Positions 1 through 5,789 of a stretch of DNA of 19,164 nucleotides are shown in pieces. Each line of letters starts with the position of its first letter. Position 1 is the first letter of the stretch. The stretch spans positions 10,935 to 30,098 of the forward strand of contig PMAK01000258.1 in NCBI GenBank assembly GCA_003153655.1, read 5' to 3'. The notes beneath the pieces are model-generated. The model had not been told where the DNA came from. It saw only the letters and a list, made by a program, of their open reading frames with translations, and ran no database searches. The position numbers were made by a program, and so were the translations under genes. This stretch comes from Phycisphaerales bacterium. GTDB lineage: Bacteria; Planctomycetota; Phycisphaerae; Tepidisphaerales; Tepidisphaeraceae.

Positions 1-641
1 AGTTCATGAGCGAATCGGTGAACCTCAAACCACCGGTCCTCCCGAACTTTTCCCTTGAATACCTCATCATGAACCCGATCGTCAAAAATCTCCGCGCCGC
101 CACCCGGCAGACTCCCGAGCCCTGCCTCCCGAAGAGCAGCCAGTACTTCGCGGACACCCAGATGTGCGATCCGGCCCAGATGAATAATCTCAATCGCGGT
201 GAACGCCTTGATATGCAATTGCGGACACTCGCGCCGAATGCCGCTGAGCATCTGCAGGTAGTAATCAAATTTCAGCCAGGGATGCAGCCCGCCGACGATA
301 TGCACTTCCGTCGCCCCGGCCTCGGCCGCGCGAACCGCCGTCGCGATCACCTGCTCAACGGGCATCTCATAAGCCCCGTCCTCGCCGCGTTTGCGATAGA
401 ACGAACAGAATTTGCAGGAGAGCGCGCAGACGTTCGTGTAGTTGATATGCCGATTGCGATTGTAAAACGTCTTATCCCCGTGCAGTTTTTCCCGAACATA
501 ATTTGCCAGCCGCCCAATGCCATGCACGTCCCGGCTGGCGTAAAGCGCAGCCCCATCCTCAGCCGAAAGCCGCCGGCCCGCGGCCAAACTGTCCGCCACC
601 GGCTGTAGGGCGGGATCGTTTACTTTCAACTCGGACGGCAT
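1..641 (-). CDS. mqnE: Aminofutalosine synthase MqnE (radical SAM), 3' end outside window
   Basis: The first 213 residues are visible and the gene runs off the left edge. MqnE joins the enolpyruvyl ether of 3-carboxybenzoate (made by MqnA) to SAM-derived adenosine, giving aminofutalosine in the cytoplasmic futalosine route to menaquinone. The radical-SAM 4Fe-4S motif CxxxCxxC is at C72, C76 and C79, just after HINYTN. MqnE-specific stretches follow: EVHIVGGLHP (about 112-121), IKAFTAIE (144-151) and SLPGGGAEIF (177-186). These separate it from the paralogue MqnC, which usually has GAGAE at the last site. The ATG at 641 has no Shine-Dalgarno sequence, and a -10-like box lies 8 nt upstream, so the transcript may be leaderless. 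It has the same orientation as the ubiA-ubiX-menG run, but a toxin-antitoxin pair on the other strand separates them. The family call is firm; only the C-terminal part is unseen. Confidence 0.93.
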   Translation of the reverse strand, partial: MPSELKVNDPALQPVADSLAAGRRLSAEDGAALYASRDVHGIGRLANYVREKLHGDKTFYNRNRHINYTNVCALSCKFCSFYRKRGEDGAYEMPVEQVIATAVRAAEAGATEVHIVGGLHPWLKFDYYLQMLSGIRRECPQLHIKAFTAIEIIHLGRIAHLGVREVLAALREAGLGSLPGGGAEIFDDRVHDEVFKGKVREDRWFEVHRFAHE

Positions 642-728: not shown

Positions 729-977
729 ATGCAGGTCCAACTTAAAAAGCCTGAACTCGAAAAATTCATTGACGACCAAGTGAAGGCCGGTCATTTTCCG
801 ACCCCCGAAGCCGCCGTCGAAGCCGCCGTTCAGCAAATGATGCTTGAACAGATGCGTGAGTTGGATGACGACACGGTGAATGCCATCAATCGTGCGGAGG
901 AACAAATCGACGGCGGACAAGGCGTGGACTTCAAAAAGTTTGCTGCCGATATGCGAAAGAAATTGGCCGCCGGTTGA
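729..977 (+). CDS. parD: ParD-like antitoxin
   Basis: An 82-residue acidic protein encoded directly before a ParE-like toxin. The N-terminal half (about residues 6-45) has the ParD layout: a helix with FIDDQVKAGHF, the phrase TPEAAVEAAVQ and then a long helix, as in ribbon-helix-helix or ParD-type dimerisation domains. The C-terminal tail (FKKFAADMRKKL) would be the toxin-binding segment. Type II antitoxins of this kind neutralise the toxin and repress their own promoter. The stop codon is one base from the toxin ATG, so translation is probably coupled. The ATG at 729 is chosen because the residues from it fit the family and no in-frame upstream start has a ribosome binding site. The pair runs opposite to the flanking menaquinone genes. 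Confidence 0.8.
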   Translation: MQVQLKKPELEKFIDDQVKAGHFPTPEAAVEAAVQQMMLEQMRELDDDTVNAINRAEEQIDGGQGVDFKKFAADMRKKLAAG

Positions 978-978
978 C

Positions 979-1305
979 ATGCCACCGGTGTTTCATCTTA
1001 TTCTCTCCCCCGAAGCAACTGCTAACCTACAGGAAATTCACGAACATATCCGCATAAGTTCTCCTCAGAATGCGGCCCGAATGGTTGACCGGATTCTTAA
1101 TGTCATCGAAAAGTTGGAGGACTTTCCGCATCGGAACGTCGTCGAATATCAGAGCAAAAAACTAAAGCATCCGGTTCGCTCGATCGTTGTTAAGCCATAT
1201 CTCATCTTTTTTCGCGTAATTGAATCCCAGCAGGTGGTTCGAATTCTTTCCGTCCGTCATGCGGCAAGGAGACGGCCAGCACAATTTGATACGCCGAAGC
1301 AATAA
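979..1305 (+). CDS. parE: ParE/RelE-fold toxin
   Basis: A 108-residue protein of the ParE-type toxin family. The N-terminal region (FHLILSPEATANLQEIHEHI) gives the first strand and helix. A middle helix has ARMVDRILNVIEKLEDFP. The C-terminal core reads HPVRSIVVKPYLIFFRVIE, then VVRILSVRHAARR, matching the family pattern of an Arg-rich strand, a Tyr-containing strand and a terminal H-x-R-R. ParE toxins usually poison DNA gyrase, while RelE relatives cleave mRNA; the sequence alone does not settle the target. The open frame extends upstream to 880 inside parD, but the ATG at 979, one base after the parD stop, gives the family length. It converges with ubiA, with 18 nt between the stop codons and no clear terminator. 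Confidence 0.82.
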   Translation: MPPVFHLILSPEATANLQEIHEHIRISSPQNAARMVDRILNVIEKLEDFPHRNVVEYQSKKLKHPVRSIVVKPYLIFFRVIESQQVVRILSVRHAARRRPAQFDTPKQ

Positions 1306-1323: not shown

Positions 1324-2229
1324 TCATCTCGTCAGGTCAATGATCCCCAATGTCGCCACCAAAAGGCTAATTATCCCATTGATTGTGAAAAACGACAGGT
1401 TCACCTTGGACAGATCATTCGGCTTGACAAGGCTCTGCTCGACGATGAGAAGCACGATCGCCGTCCCCGCGCCAATAAAATAGAGCAACCCGAATTGCGG
1501 AACGACAAACCCGAGCACGATCAGCATCGCCGCCGCAATGAAATGCGTTAGCCGGCTCACCCGCAGAGCTTTGGCTATCCCGATCTTCGCCGGAACCGAA
1601 TACACGCCACATTCCAGATCACTGGAAAAATCCTGGCACGCGTAAATGATGTCGAACCCCGCCGTCCAACTTGCGACGATGATGAACATAACGAGCGGCG
1701 GCCAATCCACGCGCCCGACCACCGCGACCCACGCGCACACCGGCGCCAGCGCGAGCGCAACGCCTAAATAATAATGACATAGCCGCGTGAATCGCTTCAT
1801 GAACGGATACCCGCACAGATACGCCAGCACTGGCAACGAAAGCAGCAGCGGCCAGATATTGCGATAGAGAATTTCAAACCCAGCCGTCGCGGCAATAAAT
1901 CCGCAGCAGCAGATCATTAGGATCGCAACGACAAATCGCCGCGAAAGCGACCCCGAAGGCAACGCCCGGCGGGCAGTACGCGGATTTCGCGCGTCGAGTT
2001 CCGAATCAATAATCCGATTGGCGGCCATGGCAACCGTCCGCGCCGTCACCATGCACACAAGAATCAGCCCGATCTTCCCAGCCGTCAGCGATCCCGGAAA
2101 CGCCCGGCCCGCGATCGCCGCGCTCAGAATCGCCCATGGCAGCGCGAAGACGGTGTGATGAATCTTGATGTCGTCGGCAAAGACCCGCAGTCTGCCGCCG
2201 AATGTCGCCGGAGCAGCAGCGGGGGGCAT
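1324..2229 (-). CDS. ubiA: UbiA-family prenyltransferase (MqnP-type, menaquinone)
   Basis: A polytopic membrane prenyltransferase of 301 residues from the chosen ATG. It holds both Asp-rich motifs that bind the Mg-diphosphate of the prenyl donor: NRIIDSELD (N71, D75, D79) and DFSSD (D200, D204) after DIIYACQ. Hydrophobic helices alternate along the rest of the chain. With mqnE in the same window, the likely role is attaching a polyprenyl chain to 1,4-dihydroxy-6-naphthoate or its carboxylated form, the job of MqnP. A 4-hydroxybenzoate substrate cannot be excluded. The open frame extends 38 codons further, into ubiX. The ATG at 2229 lies 31 nt after the ubiX stop and gives the normal family N-terminus before the first conserved HHTVFALPWA. 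It is the last gene of the minus-strand operon. Confidence 0.88.
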   Translation of the reverse strand: MPPAAAPATFGGRLRVFADDIKIHHTVFALPWAILSAAIAGRAFPGSLTAGKIGLILVCMVTARTVAMAANRIIDSELDARNPRTARRALPSGSLSRRFVVAILMICCCGFIAATAGFEILYRNIWPLLLSLPVLAYLCGYPFMKRFTRLCHYYLGVALALAPVCAWVAVVGRVDWPPLVMFIIVASWTAGFDIIYACQDFSSDLECGVYSVPAKIGIAKALRVSRLTHFIAAAMLIVLGFVVPQFGLLYFIGAGTAIVLLIVEQSLVKPNDLSKVNLSFFTINGIISLLVATLGIIDLTR

Positions 2230-2260
2230 GGTTGTATGGCTAGCGGAAGTCACGGTTACA

Positions 2261-2875
2261 TCAGCGAGTTTGGCCCGAGGCGCCGCTCGGCGGCCGGATA
2301 TTCTTTGGATCCCACCGCGTATCCAGCGCATGTGCCACGCCAAGCAGGTCCATCAATTTTCCCGCAACGAAATCGACGATCTCCCCGACAGATTCCGGAT
2401 TAAGATAAAACCCCGGATTCGTCGGCGCAAGAATTGCCCCGGCATCGCCGAGAATCTTGTAATTATTGATATCGATAGGCGACAGCGGCATCTCACGATG
2501 AGCCAGGATCAGCCGCCGACGCTCCTTGAGCGTGACCGCCGCGGCCCGGGAGATCAGATTGTCCCCAAGCCCGTGCGCAACTTCCGCCAGCGTATTGCTG
2601 CTGCAAGGCACGATCACCATCCCCTGATGCAAAAAACTTCCGCTGGCCGGCTTCGCCCCGACATCGTTGTAATTGTAAAGCGTGACCGTGTGCTCGGCCG
2701 TCCCCGCCAGCGCGGTGAGATCGACCGTCTCCATCCCCAGTTCATCATGCAAAAGCCGTCGCCCGAGTGGCGAGACGATCAGATGGACCTTCACACCAGC
2801 CGCGACAAGACCCTGAATAAACCGCTGCGCGTAAAGCGCGCCGCTGGCCCCGGTGATGGCGGTGACTAAATCCAT
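2261..2875 (-). CDS. ubiX: Flavin prenyltransferase UbiX (MqnM-type)
   Basis: This 204-residue protein matches full-length UbiX. UbiX prenylates FMN to the cofactor needed by UbiD-type decarboxylases; in futalosine-pathway organisms the UbiX/UbiD pair acts on the naphthoate ring. The N-terminal flavin loop TGASGALYA is at about 8-16. The conserved YNYNDVGAKPASGSF stretch comes next, then PCSSNTLAEVAHGLGDNLISRAA and KERRRLILAHREMPLS, the signature of the FMN- and phosphate-binding face. PTNPGFYLNP completes the active site near the C-terminus. It begins 17 nt after menG ends and stops 31 nt before ubiA. No UbiD partner is visible in the window. Confidence 0.95.
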   Translation of the reverse strand: MDLVTAITGASGALYAQRFIQGLVAAGVKVHLIVSPLGRRLLHDELGMETVDLTALAGTAEHTVTLYNYNDVGAKPASGSFLHQGMVIVPCSSNTLAEVAHGLGDNLISRAAAVTLKERRRLILAHREMPLSPIDINNYKILGDAGAILAPTNPGFYLNPESVGEIVDFVAGKLMDLLGVAHALDTRWDPKNIRPPSGASGQTR

Positions 2876-2892
2876 ATCTCAAATGATACCTG

Positions 2893-3678
2893 TCAGGGCC
2901 GAACTCCGCGATAACAAACGCAAATGCCGAAGGTCATTGGCTTCTGCATCACGCTCTGAAATCCCGCCCCCGCCAGCATTTCCATCATCGTTTCACGGCC
3001 GATGAACGTATTGACGGATTGCGGAAGATATCGGTACGCCCCGGTCTTATCCCCGCTGATCCATGTCGCAGTTCGCGGCAGAATCTGCCTGAAGTAAAAG
3101 TTGTACATCGCGCGAAGCAGCGAATGGGTCGGCAATGAAAACTCAAGAATGATCAACCTGCCGCCCGGGCGCAGGATGCGGAAGAACTCGCGGATGGCCG
3201 CCGCCGGATCGACAACGTTGCGGATGCCAAAGGCAATTGAAACGACGTCGCAACAGGCGTCGGGCAGTGGCAGCGCCAGAGCATCGCCGTTAATGAATCG
3301 AACGCTTTGAGCCGTAGTTTGTCGATCTGTCGAAACCCGCGTCCACTTCGCGATGGCCAGCGGAAGCATTTGATATGTGAAGTCGATGCCGATGACCTGG
3401 GATGAACTTGCCGCACTCTGCATACGGCGCAAGCCATCAAAAAACGCCAGCGTCAAATCGCCCGTGCCACAGGCGACATCCACAACGCGATCAGATGGCT
3501 TGAGTTCCGCGAGCTTCACCGCCTTGCGCCGCCAGCTCTGATCCATCCATGCGCTATGCAGCCGATTATTCAAATCGTAGCTGGGCGCAATAGCCGCGAA
3601 CATCCCCTGCACGCGCCGGCGTTTGTCCGTCACCGCGTGCGGATCGACTAGCGTTGCATCGTTCCAGAGATCGGTCAT
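2893..3678 (-). CDS. ubiE: UbiE/MenG-type quinone C-methyltransferase
   Basis: A 261-residue class I SAM-dependent methyltransferase that probably converts demethylmenaquinone to menaquinone. SAM-binding motif I is VVDVACGTGDLT (starting about residue 65). The family motifs YDLNNRLHS near the N-terminus, DALALPLPD, FGIRNVVDPAAAIREFFRILRPGG and the later FYFRQILP follow in order. An ATG ten codons upstream (3708) is open, but it lies inside the preceding DUF190 gene. The ATG at 3678 is preceded by AAGGA at good spacing and starts 7 nt after the DUF190 stop, so I chose it. A run of Ser and Ala between motif I and the next Asp-containing strand (about 86-90) looks like a small loop insertion. 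The context with UbiX, UbiA and MqnE supports menaquinone rather than ubiquinone. Confidence 0.92.
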   Translation of the reverse strand: MTDLWNDATLVDPHAVTDKRRRVQGMFAAIAPSYDLNNRLHSAWMDQSWRRKAVKLAELKPSDRVVDVACGTGDLTLAFFDGLRRMQSAASSSQVIGIDFTYQMLPLAIAKWTRVSTDRQTTAQSVRFINGDALALPLPDACCDVVSIAFGIRNVVDPAAAIREFFRILRPGGRLIILEFSLPTHSLLRAMYNFYFRQILPRTATWISGDKTGAYRYLPQSVNTFIGRETMMEMLAGAGFQSVMQKPMTFGICVCYRGVRP

Positions 3679-3685
3679 TGATTCC

Positions 3686-4447
3686 TTAACAGGTTCCCGC
3701 GCGTCCATGACGGTAAAGCAGGATCTTCACATACTCCATGGTGATCATCCCTTCCGCCACCATCGCTTCCAGATGCGGCAACAGACGATTCACGTTGTCC
3801 TGCCCATCCACGATCTCAATGACAATCGGCAGATCGGAAGACATCTCAAGCAGCGCCGCCTTATGCACCACGCTGCGCGCGCCAAATCCCTCCGAGCCGC
3901 GCAGTACCGTCGCGCCGGCAAGCCCAAGCTCCCGCGTTTTCTGCACGATCGCCTCATAAAGCGGCTGATTGTTGAATCGATCGGATTCCCCAATGAATAC
4001 CCGAAGAAGAACGCCATTGTCGTTAGTGGTCATATGAGTTCCCGGTTCGATTTGCGGGATAGTTGAAAGAGGCTGCGTTGCCGGAGCCAGTTGGAGGTTT
4101 TCGGATTTCTCCTGATCGCGATGGCGATACATCATCACGGCGGCCCGTTCCAGCGTAATCATGCCGCCGACCATGATCTCGTCCAGTGGCCCGCGAATAA
4201 ACGCGGCGATTTTTTCGGCGCTGTCCACGATCTCCACGATGATCGGTTCGTGCTGCACGAGCGATAACGGGGCTCTTTCGATGATGCCGTGATAGCCCGC
4301 CCCAAGAATGCCGCGAAGAACAGTTGCGCCCGCGAGCTTTTGCCGTCTGGCTTCCTGAACGATCCGCTGATAACTCGGCGTGAAGGGCGCGCGATCGGCG
4401 CTTTGGAGAAAGATCCGCAGAAGAACCTGTTCGCGGGCAAAATTCAC
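3686..4447 (-). CDS. Tandem DUF190 protein
   Basis: A 253-residue protein of two DUF190 domains in one chain: about residues 6-110 and 144-248. A Pro/Gln/Thr-rich linker joins them. Both copies have the same landmarks: AGATVLRG (39-46 and 177-184), an IVxIVD or IVEIVD strand, then GGMITLE in copy 1 and EGMITME in copy 2, each ending in a YRH. DUF190 folds like PII-type ferredoxin-like proteins. Genes of this family are often next to crcB, so a role in fluoride or anion stress is plausible but unproven. The usual protein is a single domain of about 110 residues, so this is a fusion or tandem duplication. The start is a GTG at 4447 with GGA a few bases upstream, 26 nt after crcB. It ends 7 nt before the methyltransferase start. 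Confidence 0.85.
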   Translation of the reverse strand: MNFAREQVLLRIFLQSADRAPFTPSYQRIVQEARRQKLAGATVLRGILGAGYHGIIERAPLSLVQHEPIIVEIVDSAEKIAAFIRGPLDEIMVGGMITLERAAVMMYRHRDQEKSENLQLAPATQPLSTIPQIEPGTHMTTNDNGVLLRVFIGESDRFNNQPLYEAIVQKTRELGLAGATVLRGSEGFGARSVVHKAALLEMSSDLPIVIEIVDGQDNVNRLLPHLEAMVAEGMITMEYVKILLYRHGRAGTC

Positions 4448-4473
4448 TTATGTTCCATTGTACGCGTTTTGGT

Positions 4474-4851
4474 TCAGGTCAATCGACCCAGCCAGATTCC
4501 CAGACGAACCGCCACTAATCCCAGGGCCAGACTTCCAAAGAGATTCAGGCAACTCTTGATGATCGCGCCGTCGTCCAGCAGCGCGTTCGATTCAAATATA
4601 TACGTGGAGAAGGTGGTATACGTTCCGATGAATCCGACAGCGATGGCGATGCGAGTTGCGTCGGAAAACTGATGCCGGGTGGCGTGGGTGAGAAACCAGC
4701 CAAGAAACAGGCTGCCAGTGATATTGATGACGAGCGTCCCAAACGGGAAATAAGTATTGAACTGACCGAAGAGTCTTCCGACTAACCACCGCGCCATAGC
4801 GCCGACGAAGCCGGCCAATCCGATCAGCAAAGACATCATCAGCGGATTCAT
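4474..4851 (-). CDS. crcB: Fluoride channel CrcB/Fluc
   Basis: A 125-residue membrane protein with four predicted helices, the normal size for CrcB. CrcB forms a dual-topology dimer that exports fluoride across the inner membrane. The conserved GGxxGAxxR pattern appears as GLAGFVGAMARWLV (about 12-25). Then come FPFGTLVINITGSLFLG, with the channel Asn, and GFIGTYTTFSTYIFE, with the Phe-box and the Na-site region. The open frame continues upstream to 5043, but that part would translate the riboswitch and terminator. The ATG at 4851 has AAGGA 6 nt before it and begins exactly at the family N-terminus. It is the first gene after the fluoride aptamer, which strongly supports the call. Confidence 0.96.
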   Translation of the reverse strand: MNPLMMSLLIGLAGFVGAMARWLVGRLFGQFNTYFPFGTLVINITGSLFLGWFLTHATRHQFSDATRIAIAVGFIGTYTTFSTYIFESNALLDDGAIIKSCLNLFGSLALGLVAVRLGIWLGRLT

Positions 4852-4878
4852 TCCATTTCCTTTCGCGGCGGGACCAAC

Positions 4879-4911
4879 AAAAAAGCCCCGGCGTTTTAGT
4901 ATCGCCGGGGC
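4879..4911 (-). terminator. Intrinsic terminator in the crcB leader (riboswitch expression platform)
   Basis: On the minus strand GCCCCGGCG (4903-4911) and CGCCGGGGC (4885-4893) pair perfectly over 9 bp around a 9-nt loop, followed by six U (4879-4884). It lies between the fluoride aptamer and the crcB ribosome binding site. An upstream segment CGCCGGG (4928-4934) could pair with CCCGGCG in the 5' arm (4903-4909) over 7 bp, forming an antiterminator that excludes the terminator. This is a typical OFF-without-ligand design, though the direction of switching is inferred. Confidence 0.88.
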
Positions 4912-4944
4912 ATTGCTTGATAGCGCTCCCGGCGGGTGATGCCC

Positions 4945-5001
4945 GACAGGAGTCATTGGTCCCAACGAATCAGGACGGTTCAGGCGGACTCCACCGCCCT
5001 T
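4945..5001 (-). promoter_or_regulatory. Fluoride riboswitch aptamer (crcB motif)
   Basis: The leader RNA matches the crcB-motif consensus: GGCGGUGGAGUCCGCC, GAACC, a short hairpin, then CAAUGACUCCUG. The diagnostic pseudoknot is GGAGUC (4987-4992) with GACUCC (4949-4954), 6 bp. GGCG/CGCC (4983-4986 with 4995-4998) closes the first helix, and GUCC/GGAC (4973-4976 with 4959-4962) the second. The known class binds Mg-chelated fluoride and turns on crcB. Here crcB starts about 100 nt downstream, beyond a terminator. No computed covariance score was available, but the combined motif and context make the call firm. Confidence 0.92.
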
Positions 5002-5081
5002 GGAAATCTCGAAACAAGCTATCACTAACGGCAAAGAACGCACTTTTTACCCGAAAAAGGAGGTCGATGCACGGGATTAAG

Positions 5082-5110: not shown

Positions 5111-5136
5111 ATATGACTGACGCGTCAGTTATTTAA
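5108..5136 (-). promoter_or_regulatory. Candidate crcB-operon promoter
   Basis: On the minus strand TTAAAT (5131-5136), a 17-nt spacer and TATATT (5108-5113) form a possible sigma-70 promoter for the fluoride leader. The -10 matches five of six consensus bases; the -35 only three. The 14-bp palindrome lies wholly inside the spacer, so a repressor bound there would block this promoter. Confidence 0.4.
5116..5129. promoter_or_regulatory. Palindromic TetR-type operator
   Basis: ACTGACG followed directly by CGTCAGT is a perfect 14-bp palindrome, 21 bp before the tetR start. TetR-family dimers usually bind palindromes of this size next to their own gene. It sits between the divergent tetR and crcB transcription units, inside the spacer of the candidate crcB promoter. 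Autoregulation is the simple reading; effects on crcB are inference. Confidence 0.65.
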
Positions 5137-5150
5137 TTCAAGGCGGCCAA

Positions 5151-5789
5151 ATGGTAGTTGAAAAACGACAGCCTGGAAGACCCAGGGACGAAGCGCTCCA
5201 GCAGCGGCGGCGCGAGGCAATTCTCGCCGAGGCGGCCAAGTTGTTCGCTAAGCATGGCTTTACCGACACGGACGTTCAGTGGATTGCCGACGCGCTGAAG
5301 ATCAGCAAGGGGACGGTCTACCGCTACTTCCCGACCAAGGAAAAATTGTTTCTCGCCGCGGTCGAGCGGGGGATCGGCCGGATGCAGCAGCACATCGAAT
5401 CCGCCCGGCGCGGCATGACCGACAAGATCGAGGAAATCCGCGCCGGCGTGGTCGCCTATCTCCAGTTTTTCAAGAAGAACCCGGAACTGGTCGAGCTATT
5501 CATTCAGGAGCGGGCCGAGTTCAGGAGTCGCCACCGCCCGATTTATTTCCAGAACCGCGACCTCCGCCGCGGACCCTGGCGGCAGCATCTGGCCGATCTG
5601 ATGATCGAGGGACGCATTCGCCAGATGTCCGTGGATCGGGTGCTCGATGTGCTCGGCGATGTGCTGTACGGCACGATGTTCACAAATCATTTTGCCGGCC
5701 GGGACAAGCCGTTCGACGCCCAGGCCCAGGACATTCTGGATGTGGTATTCAACGGAATCCTGAGCGATGCCGAGCGGAAAGTGGTTTGA
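5151..5789 (+). CDS. TetR/AcrR-family transcriptional regulator
   Basis: A 212-residue repressor of the TetR fold. The N-terminal DNA-binding domain (about 20-68) has the helix with ILAEAAKLFAKHGF and then the helix-turn-helix with IADALKISKGTVYRYFPTKEKLF, the family signature. The rest is helical and would form the ligand and dimer domain. The ATG at 5151 has AAGG about 7 nt upstream, and the basic KRQPGRPRDE lead is normal for the family. It is 31 nt upstream of an HlyD-type adaptor and an MFS exporter, so it probably represses a drug or metabolite efflux operon and itself through the palindrome at 5116-5129. The inducer cannot be told from the sequence. Confidence 0.92.
   Translation: MVVEKRQPGRPRDEALQQRRREAILAEAAKLFAKHGFTDTDVQWIADALKISKGTVYRYFPTKEKLFLAAVERGIGRMQQHIESARRGMTDKIEEIRAGVVAYLQFFKKNPELVELFIQERAEFRSRHRPIYFQNRDLRRGPWRQHLADLMIEGRIRQMSVDRVLDVLGDVLYGTMFTNHFAGRDKPFDAQAQDILDVVFNGILSDAERKVV

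Follow-up and report, generated by a model that had tools for sequence, protein, structure and literature searches.

A putative fluoride riboswitch operon with an unusual tail of menaquinone genes in a Phycisphaerales bacterium

We analysed a 19,164-nt stretch of DNA from a Phycisphaerales bacterium (contig PMAK01000258.1; the whole stretch is termed the window), in which a minus-strand fluoride riboswitch is followed by the fluoride exporter gene crcB, a double-DUF190 gene and three menaquinone genes, menG, ubiX and ubiA. The switch is of an ordinary kind, while its quinone tail is unusual. Transcription probably runs on from the switch into the quinone genes, given the gene order, the tight gaps and the lack of a detected terminator, and a functional coupling of fluoride to menaquinone is plausible. 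To the fullest form of this explanation, a fluoride-ON transcription switch whose read-through would raise the menaquinone genes above a basal level, we give about an even chance. The elements concerned are these:

4940–5007, minus strand: fluoride riboswitch aptamer (RF01734, 39.9 bits, above the gathering cut-off of 34; E 4.3e-8)
4879–4939, minus strand: expression platform, with a hairpin strand competing for the aptamer CUCC, an antiterminator arm, and a terminator with T run (from sequence and folds)
4474–4851, minus strand: crcB, fluoride exporter (Fluc) (TIGR00494, 93.3 bits, above the cut-off of 80.45; PF02537)
3686–4447, minus strand: fused double-DUF190 gene, partner of crcB (PF02641 in two stretches; weak P-II match, 25.0 bits)
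2893–3678, minus strand: menG/ubiE, demethylmenaquinone methyltransferase (TIGR01934, 217.7 bits, above the cut-off of 158.35)
2261–2875, minus strand: ubiX, flavin prenyltransferase (TIGR00421, 178.9 bits, above the cut-off of 108.9)
1324–2229, minus strand: ubiA-family prenyltransferase, MqnP-like (TIGR01475, 240.1 bits, above the cut-off of 180.8)

An earlier note on this DNA had placed a fluoride aptamer and terminator at the head of a minus-strand run from crcB to ubiA, and the RF01734 match, the stem with its T run and the protein family models all bear this out. Its pair of DUF190 genes turned out to be two domains in one gene, a single fused open reading frame (ORF) at 3686–4447 whose product is 52–65% identical to six double proteins found after crcB in relatives. 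The intergenic distances that it gave were confirmed: 26 nt for crcB–DUF190, 7 nt for DUF190–menG, 17 nt for menG–ubiX and 31 nt for ubiX–ubiA, the last assuming that ubiA starts at the ATG at 2229 (a longer TTG start at 2343 would overlap ubiX). The start of menG agrees with the N-termini of 9 relatives, and its ribosome site, AAGGA, overlaps the DUF190 stop codon, so that the 7-nt joint leaves no spacer before menG. Composition is even across this joint (G+C at third codon positions 0.65–0.70). The further claim, that no terminator separates the fluoride genes from the quinone genes, agrees with two scans of limited loop length: one with loops of 3–8 found none on the minus strand between crcB and ubiX (it also misses the loop-9 terminator of the leader), and another with loops up to 9 found none within 160 nt after DUF190. 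A scan of 6 kb for consensus promoters found none, not even for crcB. Scoring with weight matrices gave a marginal site before the aptamer, at 10.55 bits, against shuffle maxima with a mean of 9.7 and a highest value of 13.2. For ubiA, three MqnP models scored 186–244 bits, below their cut-offs (the best 243.6, against 420).

The aptamer is the sole RF01734 match in a covariance-model scan of the source genome. Both pseudoknot strands are present, GGAGU (from 4992) and ACUCC (from 4953). At positions 6, 38 and 39 it carries G, C and A where A, U and G are usual; for these numbers, and for the columns of the long-range pair, we assume the numbering of the T. petrophila structure. A comparison of 59 distinct aptamer-like strings showed 10 with G at position 6, all of which had C at 38 and A at 39, and 49 with A at 6, of which 46 had U at 38. 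These strings were found by pattern across the collected loci, not each confirmed by covariance model, and relatives were counted separately, so the 10 G-type strings represent fewer than 10 events. In an alignment of aptamers found by covariance model, 4 of 33 had the G form. The G-type strings are those of the window and of loci L013, L025, L026, L137, L140, L148, L152, L153 and L154; their sources are Phycisphaerae belonging to two families, together with three acidobacterial records. A long-range A-U pair is described as part of the fluoride aptamer in the portion of PMC10687018 drawn on here; the contact seems to be kept in another form in G-type aptamers, and the G/C/A form may be a natural version of the reversed Watson-Crick contact. 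This covariation of positions 6 and 38 supports a working window aptamer, for which fluoride binding and gene control are predicted. As a separate observation, fluoride aptamers occur as close-set divergent pairs at loci L137, L140, L149 and L153 and in genomes G013, G047, G061, G084 and G099; the second aptamer of the G084 pair faces a cyclopropane-synthase-like gene.

Downstream of the aptamer lies an intrinsic terminator at 4911–4885, with stem GCCCCGGCG/CGCCGGGGC of 9 pairs, a loop of 9 and then six T. It is present in the best leader fold (z -3.34; 1 of 200 shuffles equally good). An Rfam anti-hemB match at 4877–4939 was rejected, being below its own cut-off and covering the terminator. 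An antiterminator arm, CGCCGGG at 4934–4928, can pair with CCCGGCG. Switching was examined by folding growing prefixes of the leader with the CUCC strand either free or held unpaired, the latter mimicking the fluoride-bound pseudoknot. With the strand held, prefixes of 101–116 nt formed the antiterminator (-12 to -21 kcal/mol). With the strand free, prefixes of 80–100 nt paired CUCC with a downstream CGGGAG, breaking the aptamer pseudoknot, and the terminator was in the best fold from 125 nt onward. Judged by these energies, the leader fits fluoride-ON antitermination, which is also the mechanism given for the B. cereus crcB switch in the part of PMC10687018 consulted.

The proposed switch would work as follows. 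Without fluoride, the 3′ strand of the aptamer would be held in the downstream hairpin, the terminator would form and few transcripts would pass. With fluoride, the pseudoknot would hold that strand, the freed arm would base-pair to the terminator on its 5′ side, and antitermination would let polymerase read crcB, DUF190, menG, ubiX and ubiA. Some basal expression would remain, from leak or from a weak promoter inside DUF190. Such a basal path is needed, given the copy numbers in the source genome (a draft of 4.65 Mb in 304 contigs, 88% complete, in which the contig of the window has N gaps outside it). It has one ubiX match and three UbiA-family genes: a heme O synthase, an EboC-like gene and that of the window, the sole MqnP-like copy. 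A strict fluoride on/off control would thus stop menaquinone synthesis in the absence of fluoride, and fluoride control could at most be a boost, although a further ubiX or ubiA copy is possible in the missing part of the genome. Placing the quinone genes under the fluoride switch, as the earlier note did, therefore holds as likely read-through, to which the g71 mqnA genes described below add, and fails as simple on/off control. The genome has 13 PF01209 matches, of which the best two were scored; the second (on contig C16) reached 121 bits against the MenG/UbiE cut-off of 158.35. It also has an MqnA-like gene on C157, 48% identical to the g71 MqnA, and MqnC/E-like pieces on C169 and C298, below the MqnC cut-off. 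The quinone genes look native to the cell.

A metabolic reason for such a boost can be drawn from known fluoride biology. The original list of fluoride-switch genes is reportedly that of Baker 2012. In the excerpts of PMC11139923 used here, fluoride inhibits enolase and depletes phosphoenolpyruvate (PEP), fluoride switches often control enolase, and chorismate mutase ranks with the genes found most commonly beside fluoride exporters. Menaquinone of the futalosine pathway derives from chorismate (PMC3914697, in part). A fluoride block of enolase would lower PEP and chorismate and make menaquinone a bottleneck, and more of the pathway enzymes would offset the shortage. Relief of this bottleneck is the likely use of the arrangement; like the co-transcription and the basal expression, this metabolic reason is inferred. 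If it holds, the fluoride regulon would take in the respiratory chain as well as export and glycolysis. The window resembles other RF01734-crcB operons in its aptamer over the cut-off, its terminator platform and crcB as first gene, and differs from them by G/C/A at 6/38/39 and by the trailing quinone genes. It likewise resembles fluoride-switch operons with enolase, pyrophosphatase or formate hydrogen lyase (PMC11139923, in part) in joining an enzyme of a fluoride-hit pathway to the exporter; it differs in its quinone genes, none of which is named in the excerpts of that source, where the word quinone is absent. In a search of mostly open literature we found no report linking a fluoride riboswitch to menaquinone, crcB to ubiE, the switch to futalosine, or fluoride to chorismate dehydratase. 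Menaquinone is named only as a possible riboswitch ligand in the passages of PMC10043782 and PMC9971707 drawn on, and only in a reference title in that of PMC8913905.

A parallel was found in another family, f5, to which genus g71 belongs. At locus L136 a fluoride aptamer, crcB and a double DUF190 gene are followed by a PF02621 gene (131.4 bits against 26). Its best matches among solved structures are to chorismate dehydratases (MqnA; PDB matches to E 1.7e-15); no NCBIfam model matched it. The same gene stands in the same place at L137, L138, L139, L140, L143 and L158, and the seven MqnA proteins are 84–98% identical to each other. The aptamer was found before crcB at L136, L137, L138, L139, L140 and L143. 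In six g71 genomes of a 298-genome class sample, crcB and mqnA lie on one strand, 1.2–1.8 kb apart start to start, among the matches listed. In a seventh, G084, the set is divided: one contig carries the aptamer and crcB, another the end of DUF190 with mqnA (L158/L222, L158 being assigned to G084 by identical place). The arrangement is thus in 7 of the 8 sampled g71 genomes, one of them split between contigs; the eighth, G123 (1.5 Mb, 76% complete), has neither crcB nor mqnA among the matches listed, and in each of the seven mqnA is the single match on the same basis. According to the ORF list, the genes after mqnA at L136 are on the opposite strand, which makes mqnA the apparent last gene of the operon. 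Measured to the longest ORF, the spacer before mqnA is 42–43 nt at three of these loci.

The g71 operon shares with the window the kind of switch, the first two genes and a menaquinone gene as third; mqnA encodes the first futalosine step, whereas menG, ubiX and ubiA belong to later ones, and the L136 aptamer has the ordinary A/U form where the window has G/C. In the 12 other f5 genomes with both crcB and mqnA among the matches listed, the two are on different contigs, which, with the difference of family, makes the g71 arrangement a separate event. Menaquinone genes have, to judge from gene content and family, entered the slot behind crcB-DUF190 at least twice, and g71 with its mqnA offers a second, independent case for the fluoride–menaquinone link. 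The evidence leans to such a link, without proof. The broader proposal, that fluoride operons of Phycisphaerae repeatedly recruited futalosine genes as compensation keeping respiration going under fluoride, we consider doubtful.

A number of findings weigh against coupling by the switch. In the folds, the complete leader ends up with the terminator whether CUCC is held or free, which leaves the period of transcription for the switch to act in, and one free prefix, of 105 nt, also gave the antiterminator. Weak promoter-like sites, not above chance, lie inside DUF190 or just before it (3849–3819 and 4486–4457). Of 26 genomes of the family, the source among them, 23 gave a ubiX match and 15 a crcB match (with the window protein as query), the two together in the source genome only; none of the 22 other ubiX loci had a crcB match. 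Three of these loci (L097, L104 and L108) break off at menG or no more than 320 nt from it, hiding the upstream region; in the genomes of these truncated loci, crcB is on another contig in G025 and G024 and was not found in G004, among the matches listed. Scanning GTDB genomes gave 80 DUF190 loci (flanks of up to 8 kb, many shorter; 65 with at least 3 kb after DUF190), of which 75 had a crcB match and none had menG, ubiX, ubiA or mqnE. A synteny search had been proposed in the earlier note as its check, and it found the crcB-menG-ubiX-ubiA adjacency nowhere else: the exact crcB-DUF190-menG-ubiX-ubiA joint is found in one genome only. We discarded the idea that the adjacency is conserved in the family on the ubiX/crcB comparison. 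The opposite idea, that there is no menaquinone link elsewhere, fell to the mqnA genes after DUF190, in 7 of the 80 loci and all in g71 (a piece of mqnC was in none), which the seven window proteins used as queries had missed. The mqnA parallel is itself limited to one genus and hence is one event, and in four of its seven loci the spacer before mqnA is 135–189 nt, AT-rich and repetitive, making a promoter of its own possible.

Proximity was counted among the matches listed (for crcB with four family rows added, for mqnC and mqnE with part of those listed). Seven of 100 genomes, belonging to genera g71 and g6, had mqnA within 6 kb of crcB; 3 of 95 had ubiX that close (the source and two of g54), and 0 of 70 had mqnC or mqnE. 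With even spacing and genomes of 4.3 Mb, the expectation is ~0.2–0.3 genomes per marker. With the source left out and counting by genus, three were found against ~0.75 expected, a probability of ~4% by a hand Poisson estimate chosen after the fact, and in two of the three genera, g6 and g54, the arrangement does not resemble an operon. Judged post hoc, the coincidence amounts to a few per cent at best. In g54, crcB and ubiX are 5.3 kb apart start to start in G065 and G259, with a PKD/cadherin gene between them in G065, and 11 kb apart in G247; this arrangement was not counted as one operon. In G005, mqnA and crcB are divergent and 1.7 kb apart start to start, with no aptamer over the cut-off.

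A close rival is that menG, ubiX and ubiA are accidental neighbours, set behind crcB-DUF190 by a rearrangement in this lineage and driven mainly by a promoter inside DUF190, with fluoride control incidental or nil. We hold this to be somewhat less probable than the boosting switch; the readings weighed here overlap, and their likelihoods are not meant to be exclusive. The absence of crcB from the other family loci speaks for an accident, as does the need of single-copy quinone genes for expression without fluoride. The six genes before menG that were scanned share no family (a PDZ protease, a DUF5060/apiosidase, a 3-keto-disaccharide hydrolase and three without family), and the menG block takes insertions, a ParD/ParE-like pair in the window and a 459-amino-acid ORF at L096. 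The 7-nt joint, with its ribosome site over the DUF190 stop and no room for a spacer, argues the other way, along with the mqnA parallel in another family and the failure of a weak scan to find a DUF190 promoter above chance (best score 7.6 bits, against a mean of shuffle maxima of 9.7). An assembly artefact, a contig wrongly joining crcB-DUF190 to the menG block, would account for a joint unseen in every relative examined, in a draft whose contig has N gaps at other places. We find it very improbable: the DUF190 end and the menG start are both complete with a ribosome site at the joint, the window has no N, the joint sequence was found once in the genome, and composition runs evenly across it.

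The switch might instead be effectively always on, under constant fluoride entry, with housekeeping genes sitting behind it at no cost and the tail genes meaningless. This appears unlikely to us. In its favour are the varied genes behind crcB-DUF190: of ten scanned, those close by were mqnA (L136), a glyoxalase (L141), an enolase (L151), a dynamin-like GTPase (L153) and an MFS transporter (L156), the others being a GH43 enzyme 300 nt away (L142) and four without family. The SulCav record at L148 also suggests a sulfidic cave, a habitat guessed from the name only. Some tail genes are fluoride-relevant, however, such as enolase, although no aptamer over the cut-off was found at L151. Ten chosen first genes behind other aptamers of the class comprised three Na+/H+ exchangers, two CLC proteins, two dynamin-like proteins, a phosphofructokinase (L023, 1578–2762), a metallophosphatase and a cyclopropane-synthase-like gene; none of the ten was a quinone gene. 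Dynamin-family GTPases stand directly behind aptamers in two class genomes (L011, 1636–2424; L013, 1733–3061), and the one after crcB-DUF190 (L153, 3986–5545) is from an acidobacterium. We found no literature joining fluoride riboswitches and dynamin.

Two further features lie beyond ubiA:

729–1305, plus strand: ParD/ParE-like pair between ubiA and mqnE, outside the proposed unit (PF05016, 55.5 bits; TIGR02606, 22.8 bits, below cut-off)
3–641, minus strand: mqnE, aminofutalosine synthase, truncated at the window edge (TIGR03700, 253.1 bits, positions 2–199 of 351)

The mqnE gene, which starts at 641 beyond the ParD/ParE-like pair and was absent from the earlier account of the run, continues past the window across an assembly gap, and may be part of the same run. 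Some futalosine clusters of the family share the order menG-ubiX-ubiA-mqnE, with no crcB match there: menG-ubiX-ubiA is kept on 7 of the 22 other family loci, with mqnE next at L099 and L101, where it is spaced 59–74 nt from ubiA.

On the other side, a perfect 14-nt palindrome, ACTGACGCGTCAGT, lies at 5116–5129, between the fluoride leader and a divergent tetR gene (5151–5789, plus strand). This palindrome falls within the highest-scoring promoter-like site on the minus strand, whose score is not above chance, and the fluoride operon might be a target of TetR as well. The ORFs after tetR resemble, by eye, HlyD and MFS efflux genes.

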